Source: Acidobacteriota bacterium (GTDB taxonomy: Bacteria > Acidobacteriota > Thermoanaerobaculia > Gp7-AA8). Taken from it: a stretch of 64,000 nt of DNA. Shown here piece by piece: positions 9,033 to 12,641 of this stretch; the stretch's first letter is position 1; each line of letters starts with the position of its first letter. The translations under genes and the position numbers were made by a program. Under the pieces are notes generated by a model that did no database searches, had not been told where the DNA came from, and was given only the letters and a program-made list of their open reading frames with translations. Location of the stretch: assembly GCA_003223645.1 (NCBI GenBank), contig QHVT01000005.1, forward strand, positions 124,001-188,000, in the 5' to 3' direction.

Positions 9033-9869
9033 ATGATGATTCTCGCCATTCTTTTCGCTGCGCTCATCGGGGGCGGGCGAGACGCCCGCTCTCCTCTTCC
9101 GCCGCAGAAGAGCGATGCCGTGATCGGCGTCGCCGCCGTCGATTTGCAAACCGGCAGACGCATCTCCGTCCGCGACACGGAGCGCTTCCCGATGGGGAGC
9201 GTGTACAAGGTACCGATCGCGATCGAGGTGCTACGTACGCAGCAGCTCGAACGCATGATCACGATCGAGCCGAAGGATTTCTCGCCGGGATGGAGTCCCC
9301 TCCGCGACGGCGCGGACGGGAAGCCGATCGTGATGACGATCGAGGACCTCGCCGAATGGATGGTGCAGGCGAGCGACAACACGGCCTGCGACGCACTGCT
9401 GCGCATCGTGACGCCGCAGGCCGTGACGAAGCGCATGCGCGAGCTCGGCGTCCGCGGCATCCGCATCGATCGTCAGGAGCGCGAGATGGCCGCCGATCTG
9501 CGCAAGCCTGGCGGCGTGAAGCGCTACGCGACCGATCCGCGCGACACGACGACGCCGGACGCGATGCTCGCGCTCTTCACCGCCATCGCGCAGAAACACG
9601 ACGGACTCTCGCCTGCGAATCACGCGAAGCTGATGCACTGGATGACCGAGACGACAACGGGACCGCATCGCATCAAGGCCGGCATCCCGAACGCCGCGAT
9701 CGCGCACAAGACCGGCACGATGCCGGGAACGGTGAACGACGTCGCGATCATCGACAACCGCATCGTGCTCGCGATTTTCACGAAGGCGTCGACGACGCCG
9801 GACGAGAAAGCGGAGGCGGACATCGCGGCGATCGCGCGCGGGGTTTACGACGCGCTGACTACGCGTTAG
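9033..9869 (+). CDS. Class A beta-lactamase-like serine hydrolase
   Basis: Penicillin-recognising serine hydrolase, best matched to class A beta-lactamases, expected in the periplasm. Active-site motifs in order: SxxK as 'MGSVYKVPIA' (nucleophilic Ser, general-base Lys), SDN as 'QASDNTACDALL', an omega-loop glutamate in 'IDRQEREMAADL', and KTG as 'AHKTGTMPG'. The 278-residue length is normal. The N-terminus has a short hydrophobic stretch (residues 2-12) directly followed by 'GGGRDARSPLP', encoded by half of a dispersed palindrome (family R2) that also occurs between genes. Whether it confers resistance or acts on cell-wall peptides is unknown. Confidence 0.85.
   Translation: MMILAILFAALIGGGRDARSPLPPQKSDAVIGVAAVDLQTGRRISVRDTERFPMGSVYKVPIAIEVLRTQQLERMITIEPKDFSPGWSPLRDGADGKPIVMTIEDLAEWMVQASDNTACDALLRIVTPQAVTKRMRELGVRGIRIDRQEREMAADLRKPGGVKRYATDPRDTTTPDAMLALFTAIAQKHDGLSPANHAKLMHWMTETTTGPHRIKAGIPNAAIAHKTGTMPGTVNDVAIIDNRIVLAIFTKASTTPDEKAEADIAAIARGVYDALTTR
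9069..9097. repeat. Partial R2 palindrome inside the beta-lactamase gene
   Basis: 'gggcgggcgagacgcccgct' followed by 'ctcctc' matches one arm of the palindrome at 17804-17868, 28652-28707 and 15855-15910. It is read in frame as GGGRDARSPLP between the signal peptide core and the mature enzyme. Confidence 0.65.
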
Positions 9870-9874
9870 GCACG

Positions 9875-10007
9875 CCCCCTCACCCGGCGCTTCGCGCCAC
9901 CCTCTCCCCGCAAGCGGGGCGAGGGGCAACAAACATCGAACGTTGAGATTTGTGGCCCTTCGCCCCGCTTGCGGGGAGAAGGTGGCCGAAGGCCGGATGA
10001 GGGGCTC
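9875..10007. repeat. Dispersed palindrome R5, copy 1
   Basis: A long imperfect palindrome with 'cccctcacccgg' and 'ccggatgagggg' ends and two internal hairpins around 'ctccccgcaagcgggg' and 'ccccgcttgcggggag'. A second copy lies at 60051-60190. It follows the beta-lactamase stop codon directly. Confidence 0.8.
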
Positions 10008-10009
10008 AC

Positions 10010-10532
10010 GCCTTCGCGGTAACGCGCTTGATCTCGCGCAGGAGATGCTCGCGCGCCGAGCCCTTGCACGAAGCTCGACACTTTCGCGTTGAAGTGAGGG
10101 GCGGCGGCTTTGGACTGCGGCGGCTCAGCCGCCGCTTTCTTATACCTATGAAAGAGCGGCAGCGTAGCTGCCGCAGTCCAAAGAAGATCACGCGTTCGCG
10201 GTAACGCGCTTGATCTCGCGCAGGAGATGCTCGCGCGCGGAGCCCTTGCACGAAGCTCGACATTTCGCGTTGAAGTGAAGGGCGGCGGCTTTGGACTGCG
10301 GCGGCTTAACGCCGCCGCTTTCTTATACCTATGAAAGAGCGGCAGCGTAGCTGCCGCAGTCCAAAGAAGATCACGTGTTCGCGGTAACGCGCTTGATCTC
10401 GCGCAGGAGATGCTCGCGCGCGGAGCCCTTGCACGAAGCTGACACTTTCGCGTTGAAGTGAGGGGCGGCGGCTAACGCCGCCGCTTTCTTATAGGTATAA
10501 AAAAGCGGCAGCGTAGCTGCCGCAGTCCAAGG
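10010..10532. repeat. Three extra copies of a histidine kinase 3' end plus hairpin, in tandem
   Basis: The last roughly 85 bases of the hybrid kinase gene (10533-12641) recur three times downstream of its stop. The shared 'aacgcgcttgatctcgcgca' starts at 10021, 10203, 10386 and, in the gene itself, 10548, giving periods of 182, 183 and 162 bases. Each truncated copy ends at 'actttcgcgtt' and is joined to a hairpin element ('tttggactgcggcggct', 'agcggcagcgtagctgccgc'). The three copies agree with each other more than with the intact gene end. This block fills the gap of about 660 bases after the beta-lactamase; no other gene is seen in it. Confidence 0.88.
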
Positions 10533-12641
10533 CTACGCGTTCGCGGTAACGCGCTTGATCTCGCGCAGCAGGTGCTCGCGCGCCGATCCCTTGTGCACGA
10601 AGCTCGACACTTTCGCGTGCAGCAGCGCCCGATCCTCGGATGAAATCTCTTTTGAGGTCAGCACGAGGATCGGGATGTCCGCCGTGCGCGGGTCGTCTTT
10701 CAGCGCTTCGGCGACGTCGAAGCCGGAGAGGCCCGGCATCATCAGGTCGAGGATGATGACGTCGGGCGTGCTGTCGCGCGCGACGCGCAGGCCTTCTTCG
10801 CCGGAGTACGCGCAGGCGACGATGTAGCCAAGCTCTTTCAGCTCTTCGTCGAGGAGCGCGTGCACGTTCGCGTCGTCGTCGATGACGAGGAGCCGCGCGC
10901 GGCCGTTGCCGCTGCGCGAGACGATCGAGCGGACGCGCTCGACGAGGCGGTCGCGATCGACCGGCTTGACGAAATAGTCGTCGGCGCCGAGGGCGAGGCC
11001 GAGGTCACGATTGTCGATCATCGAGATGATGACGACCGGGATCGCGCACGTTTCGGTGTCGTTCTTCAGCCGCTTCAGCACTTCCCATCCGTCGACGCCG
11101 GGCAGCACGAGATCGAGCGTGACGGCGACGGGGCGCGACTCGCGCGCGAGGCGCAGCGCCTCTTCGCCGTGACGCGCGCGGACGGAGAGATAGCCCGCCG
11201 ATCCGAGCGCGGCGGCGATGAGGTCGTAGGCGTTTGCATCGTCTTCGACGACCAGCACGCGGTCGCTTCCACCCGCCGGAACCAAAGCGCTCTCGTGCGG
11301 ACGGGTGATCACGGCCGCACGCGAGCGCACCGGCAGCGTGAACGAGAACGTGCTCCCCTGTTCGAGCGCGCTGTCGATGCTGACGCTGCCGCCCTGCAAT
11401 TCGATAAAGCGTTTGACGAGAGCAAGCCCGAGCCCCGTTCCGCCGAACTCGCGGCGCGCGGTGCCGTCGACCTGGCGGAATTCCTGGAAGATCACGGCGT
11501 GATTCTCCGGCGCGATGCCGATGCCCTCGTCGCGCACGGAGACGGTGATCGCGCCTTCGTCGAGCGACGCGCGAATCGTGATCGGCACGCCGGGCGGCGA
11601 GAACTTGACGGCGTTGGAGAGCAGGTTGAAGAGGACCTGCTTGAATTTCGCGAGGTCGGTCTCGATCTGCGGCAGCGACGACGGGATGTCGAGGACGAAA
11701 CGCGGCGACGACTTCATCATCCCGCGCATCACCTGGCAGACGCTCTCGACGACCGGCGCGATGGAGAAGAATTCGGGATAGACCTCCATCTTCCCCGCTT
11801 CGATTTTCGAGAGGTCGAGGATGTCGTTGATGATGCCGAGGAGGTGCTGTCCGGAAGCGTGGATGTGCTTGAGGAAGCCGAGGTGCTTCGTCTCGACGCG
11901 GCCGTCGAGGCGCTCGACGAGAATCTCGGAGAAGCCGATGATCGAGTTCATCGGCGTGCGCAGCTCGTGCGACATGTTGGCGAGGAATTGGCTTTTCAGC
12001 CGATCCGCTTCCTGCGTACGCCGGTTCGCGTCTTCGAGCTCCTGCGTGAGCCGCGTCAGCTCTTCGACGCGCCGCTGCGCTTCCCCTTCGAGCTGGCGAA
12101 TGACGAGGCTGCGCTCCTGCAGGTTCGCGACGCCGATGAGGAAAAAGTACGTCGCGCCGAAGATGAAGAGCATGCGGCAGAGCGCGAGCAGCATCGGCTC
12201 GTCCCAGAACGACACCTGTCCCATCAGCAGCAGCGTCGTGATGTACGCCACGGTGTTGCCGATGCTGACGAGATACGCCGCGAGCTTGCCGTTCGCGAAT
12301 GCGGCGACGCACGACGACGCGATGTACCAGATGAACCACGGACTCTGCACGCCGCCCGACGCGTAGACGCCCATCGTCACGAAGACGACGTTCGCGGTGA
12401 GCCAGAGCGGATTGAGAATGCGGCGATTGATGCCGGCGCGAAAAAGAAAATAGAACACGGCCGCGCTGACGCATCCCATTGCCCAGACGAGAAACGCCCA
12501 GCGCAAGTCGAGCGGAAACACGCGCAATCGCCACGCGGCGAGGCCGGTCAGAAGGCCGATCGTGTAGACGAAGATGTGGTTTCGCTGAATCGCGAGATCG
12601 AAGCGGACGACGCGCGCACTTTCGGGAACCCTCTCCGACAT
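10533..12641 (-). CDS. Membrane hybrid histidine kinase with two receiver domains
   Basis: 702 residues. Residues about 25-172 form six hydrophobic helices (a sensory membrane domain), then a coiled-coil linker (175-215). HisKA has the phosphoacceptor H225 in 'ANMSHELRTPMNSIIGFSEI'. The HATPase domain shows the N box 'NLLSNAVKFSPPG', G1 'DEGIGIAPE' and G2 'FGGTGLGLAL'. Receiver 1 has 'VVEDDAN', phosphoacceptor Asp in 'TLDLVLPGVDGW' and Lys in 'DDYFVKPVD'. Receiver 2 has 'VIDDDAN', Asp in 'ILDLMMPGLSG' and Lys in 'FVHKGS', where the usual Pro after Lys is Gly. No output domain is present. The extreme 3' end is the part duplicated at 10010-10532. Confidence 0.92.
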   Translation of the reverse strand: MSERVPESARVVRFDLAIQRNHIFVYTIGLLTGLAAWRLRVFPLDLRWAFLVWAMGCVSAAVFYFLFRAGINRRILNPLWLTANVVFVTMGVYASGGVQSPWFIWYIASSCVAAFANGKLAAYLVSIGNTVAYITTLLLMGQVSFWDEPMLLALCRMLFIFGATYFFLIGVANLQERSLVIRQLEGEAQRRVEELTRLTQELEDANRRTQEADRLKSQFLANMSHELRTPMNSIIGFSEILVERLDGRVETKHLGFLKHIHASGQHLLGIINDILDLSKIEAGKMEVYPEFFSIAPVVESVCQVMRGMMKSSPRFVLDIPSSLPQIETDLAKFKQVLFNLLSNAVKFSPPGVPITIRASLDEGAITVSVRDEGIGIAPENHAVIFQEFRQVDGTARREFGGTGLGLALVKRFIELQGGSVSIDSALEQGSTFSFTLPVRSRAAVITRPHESALVPAGGSDRVLVVEDDANAYDLIAAALGSAGYLSVRARHGEEALRLARESRPVAVTLDLVLPGVDGWEVLKRLKNDTETCAIPVVIISMIDNRDLGLALGADDYFVKPVDRDRLVERVRSIVSRSGNGRARLLVIDDDANVHALLDEELKELGYIVACAYSGEEGLRVARDSTPDVIILDLMMPGLSGFDVAEALKDDPRTADIPILVLTSKEISSEDRALLHAKVSSFVHKGSAREHLLREIKRVTANA

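Follow-up and report, generated by a model that had tools for sequence, protein, structure and literature searches.

Tandem clusters of REPINs repeated along with their flanking sequence were described in Pseudomonas fluorescens SBW25, in which there are 16 such clusters, composed of inverted REP doublets as one long hairpin, arranged head to tail in up to four units and over 700 bp, and in which each RAYT gene is also adjoined by a cluster (Bertels and Rainey, 2011; PMC3116915). A 2013 survey of GTAG- and CGTC-tagged REPs described these as palindromes of 20-40 bp that form inverted dimers and lie mainly between convergent or co-directional genes, near the 3' ends; most of those between convergent genes had less than 20 bp between them and the 3' end on either side, and some dimers were reiterated in tandem with flanking DNA (PMC3733652). 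In E. coli, a REP and an inverted REP make up the BIME, copies of which often follow one another in tandem, and which occurs together with TnpA-REP (PMC8266576). A pattern in which a REPIN-like element and its flanks are duplicated in tandem has already been published (PMC3116915, PMC3733652). How REP-like elements arose and spread is still unsettled.

Here we describe an array of gene ends and palindromic elements in an Acidobacteriota genome, within a 64,000-nucleotide stretch of contig QHVT01000005.1 (the window). We are confident that this array is a tandem cluster of the REP/REPIN type, in which an element and its flanking DNA were duplicated locally.

Layout and decay of the array

The tail of a hybrid histidine kinase gene is present in four copies, starting at positions 10008, 10190, 10373, and 10535 (periods of 182, 183, and 162 bases), the last of which belongs to the intact gene. 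The copies are about 85 bases long and, aligned in register over 59 nt, 93-97% identical, with an inverted-repeat hairpin element in each of the three gaps between them. The features, in order, are:

9033-9869, plus strand: class A beta-lactamase family gene (bla), convergent neighbor of the kinase gene (PF13354; synteny)
9870-10004 (core 9876-10004), unstranded: separate dispersed inverted-repeat element, from the bla stop to tail copy 1 (70 BLAST matches with both strands counted, roughly 40 places in the genome)
10008-10089, minus strand: kinase-tail copy 1, distal and nearest bla, without a REP element on the bla side
10090-10108, unstranded: spacer TGAAGTGAGGGGCGGCGGC, from tail copy 1 to element 1; an identical spacer is at 10271-10289 and at 10454-10472
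10109-10182, unstranded: REP-like inverted doublet 1, TTTGGACT...AGTCCAAA (RNA fold -55 kcal/mol, z -8.7)
10190-10270, minus strand: kinase-tail copy 2
10290-10365, unstranded: REP-like inverted doublet 2
10373-10453, minus strand: kinase-tail copy 3
10464-10531, unstranded: REP-like doublet 3, without the left TTTGGACT head; begins 1-2 bp past the kinase stop codon
10533-12641, minus strand: intact hybrid histidine kinase gene, which gives the duplicated tail (10533-10618); open reading frame with Pfam HisKA, HATPase_c, and two Response_reg domains, and orthologs in relatives

The duplicated unit comprises the 85-base gene tail, a 7-base flank, the doublet, and a spacer of about 20 bases, and the head-to-tail copies of doublet and flanking DNA have the arrangement of a tandem REPIN cluster. 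The starts of the four copies bear out the initial annotation, which had reported a kinase 3' end of about 85 bases recurring with hairpins at these periods. Its statement that a hairpin is joined to each copy is correct in that three elements lie between the tails, with the exception that the third is without its left 'TTTGGACTGCGGCGGCT', 17 nt that were deleted between direct repeats of GCGGCGGCT. The 162-base period is explained by this loss and by a right flank that is shorter. Read on the minus strand, the first hairpin of doublet 3 is followed by TTTTTT, as in a terminator. RNA folding of the array hairpins gave z values from -6 to -9 (about -8 to -9 for the doublets and -6 for the shortened third), and there were 13 terminator-like sites compared with 0.9 in shuffles, so both the stability and the number of hairpins are far beyond chance. 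A search of Rfam matched no known RNA family.

At the site where copies 1-3 read GTGC--AAGGGC, the sequence is GTGCACAAGGGA in the intact gene and GTGCAGAAGGGA in the ortholog from a genome of the same genus (G001). This 2-bp frameshifting deletion and several substitutions are common to the three copies and set them apart from the intact kinase gene; the agreement of the ortholog with the intact gene at the deletion polarizes the change as derived in the copies. One further change is common to copies 2 and 3, and each unit also has private differences, which include single-base deletions, substitutions, and a 17-nt deletion. Based on the fact that the deletion is common to copies 1-3 and absent from both the intact gene and the ortholog, these copies all descend from a single copy that had decayed, and the duplicated tails are non-coding debris. 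The initial annotation was therefore right that the truncated copies have differences in common, and the common deletion agrees with its suggestion that they were amplified from one another. The paralogue that it offered as another source was rejected, as the kinase tail was not found elsewhere in the 6.38-Mb genome.

Three relatives also have convergent kinase and bla genes; there the two run into each other, with overlaps of 11, 32, and 92 bp and no intervening repeats. The same-genus genome has no array 3' of its kinase gene. In the window 663 bp separate the two stops, a distance taken up by the array together with another dispersed element. The latter, which takes the place of a doublet on the bla side of the distal tail copy, is a 129-bp inverted repeat (CCCCTCACCC...GGATGAGGGG) whose outer flanks are conserved in one subgroup of copies; it might have inserted with a target duplication of its own, but its flanks vary among copies.

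The palindromic family and its sites in the genome

The half-element TTTGGACTGCGGCGGC has 94 matches in the whole genome at no more than one mismatch, compared with none for the reversed control, and 64 hairpins of this TTTGGACT family are perfect. These genome-wide counts come from pattern searches and from the fetched loci, in which the half-elements group into 66 distinct places, 31 of them singlets and the remainder mainly inverted doublets that span 62-87 bp (mostly 72-78 bp, typically about 75 bp). Being short, G+C-rich palindromes in many copies per genome, the elements belong to the broad REP/BIME-type class, and at about half of the 66 places there is an inverted doublet that folds to one long hairpin (z -8 to -9), as in a REPIN. 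Each half of a doublet resembles a terminator, with a stem and then a T-run. The palindrome ends have no GTAG or CGTC tetranucleotide tag, the conserved head being TTTGGACT. Several doublets hold another repeat at their center; at L023, L034, L073, L084, and L096, another dispersed palindromic repeat (GTCATCCTGAG...CTCAGGATGAC) is nested in the loop. A direct repeat with a period of about 174 bp (L072:1468-1640, and again about 174 bp further) is situated near a REP doublet, some hundreds of bases away.

Outside this genome the TTTGGACT family is almost absent. The same-genus genome searched (G001) has no exact half-element, other genomes of the same family have two or fewer matches, and across the phylum there were single matches in three more of 396 genomes searched.

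With respect to genes, 22 of the TTTGGACT places are convergent, 20 co-directional, 3 divergent, and 14 intragenic, with 7 unclassified, so that 45 of the 59 classifiable places are extragenic, and the ratio of convergent to divergent places is 22:3 vs. 8:8 for the gene pairs of the window. Outer element ends lie 0-12 bp past the stop of the gene that faces the element in 33 of 98 cases, compared with an expectation of 2% from intergenic positions of the window; the gene calls, which are from a home-made codon-usage caller trained on the window, are approximate, yet the effect is large. The inner sides of singlets have no such closeness to stops (3 of 31 within 60 bp). The proposal of the initial annotation to look for the hairpin beside other gene ends consequently had a positive outcome. 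At 33 other doublet places there was no excess of target-site duplications at lengths of at least 4 bp, and only a slight excess of matches of 2-3 bp.

There is one Y1_Tnp/RAYT gene in the genome (L052:5045-5820; G000:C4, about 53 kb; NF047646, 103.5 bits vs. a cut-off of 80). This gene is flanked by a different family, GTGGAGCGGC, which has 225 matches in the genome and none in the control, and no TTTGGACT element is present within the 10.5 kb fetched around it, in contrast to what is expected of a RAYT-linked REP (REPtron). A REP-associated transposase gene, which the initial annotation had suggested seeking, is thus present as this one RAYT (a tyrosine transposase), but it accompanies another REP family than that of the array. 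The RAYT open frame continues through a REP doublet, and further doublets lie behind it at a spacing of about 124 bp, forming a small third array of the GTGGAGCGGC family.

The second array, at L144 (1189-1888; G000:C10, about 73.7-74.4 kb), has four 175-bp units, each combining a GTGGAGCGGC doublet with the 3' end of the neighboring gene, which ends in ...PLIGPALTRGARWLVRRGRKRVR and a stop (...LVRRGRKRVR). The last unit continues into the intact gene, units 1-3 have common differences from that gene, and the first doublet retains its own outer flank. The joint, AAGCG-ATCTGG vs. GAGCGG-ATCTGG, is consistent with simple tandem duplication where a few bases match. This array is an independent parallel to the kinase array, having the same design with the other REP family.

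Origin of the array and alternative explanations

We consider it most likely that a doublet was situated at the kinase stop codon before any duplication took place. An inverted doublet of about 75 bp, from the dispersed palindromic family, would have landed directly past the stop, as at many gene ends, and the unit of tail, flank, doublet, and spacer would then have been duplicated head to tail. Such duplication could occur by replication slippage or template switching where a strong hairpin stalls the fork, and among mechanisms slippage is the one toward which we lean. Unequal exchange between the homologous units may later have altered the copy number. Judging from their sequence, a probable role of the elements is to terminate transcription in both directions or to stabilize 3' ends between the convergent kinase and bla genes. 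The repeated tails look like passengers, and if the array has a function, it would lie in its elements.

The main alternative to slippage is a templated insertion in one event, in which the nascent strand moved away from the kinase stop, copied a doublet and spacer elsewhere, and rejoined 85 bases upstream, with amplification following. This we regard as unlikely, although it has some evidence in its favor. Plain tandem duplication of a pre-existing element and tail should leave a doublet on the bla side, as it did at L144; as that doublet is missing here, it was either lost or came within or after the first duplication, and copy 1 would be expected to have no doublet on this side if the doublet entered between two tails. 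In addition, the bla end GACTACGCGTTAG and the kinase end GGCTACGCGTTCG have CTACGCGTT in common, as if the two genes once overlapped like those of the relatives. However, the spacer is beside no other element of the family, its best outside match has 2 mismatches and is not a TTTGGACT-family site, and L144 shows that plain tandem duplication suffices. A more general proposition seems to us improbable, namely that REP doublets of this genome are brought to stop codons through templated replication provoked by the hairpin, with the gene end before them duplicated at the same time; if it were true, 3'-end duplication would be a recurrent by-product of insertion and not of later slippage.

Local duplication of an element already in place is also preferred over mobile capture, by which the element would habitually pick up gene 3' ends and move them to new places. 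The initial annotation had likened the locus to 3'-end capture with tandem spread, and a palindromic element and a gene end have indeed spread in tandem. Two arrays in this genome join a gene 3' end to a REP doublet, as capture would have it, but none of the other 65 fetched TTTGGACT places has a duplicated gene end, so that capture of 3' ends is not a general property of the element, and no other site in the genome has the kinase tail. Capture as a habit is already largely refuted, and we give it very little credence. An assembly artefact from mis-joined repeats is a conceivable concern in a 51-contig draft, but it is very unlikely given that the units are distinguishable by their private differences and that the contig continues through both neighbor genes. 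Least probable of all is a site-specific integration hot spot, also raised by the initial annotation, in which the 85-base repeats would be attachment-site-like duplications made by a recombinase at a gene end: each element is bracketed by direct repeats of the gene 3' end, like attL and attR after gene-end integration, but the "cargo" of about 97 bp has no gene, there is no integrase gene within the array, and this cargo is a dispersed repeat whose 33 other doublets are without target duplications of at least 4 bp beyond chance.

Comparison with described REP systems

What the kinase array has in common with the E. coli BIME is the architecture and the tandem copies; the RAYT of this genome pairs with another repeat family. 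With the GTAG- and CGTC-tagged REPs, the TTTGGACT family has in common its palindromes, inverted dimers, siting at gene ends, and tandem repetition with flanks, while it differs in the unpaired head, which is TTTGGACT and neither of those tetranucleotides. The REPIN clusters of P. fluorescens SBW25 are like the kinase array in that doublets and their flanks are repeated head to tail, although the sequence differs, the TTTGGACT family is without a linked RAYT, and the duplicated flank here is identified as the 3' end of a gene. The last difference gives the locus its value, as decaying, formerly coding flanks, with frameshifts polarized by an intact gene, record which copy gave rise to which and so provide a record of cluster growth. 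Otherwise, this is another example of a genome-specific expansion of REPs at gene ends, and the array itself is ordinary, a further case of a known pattern.
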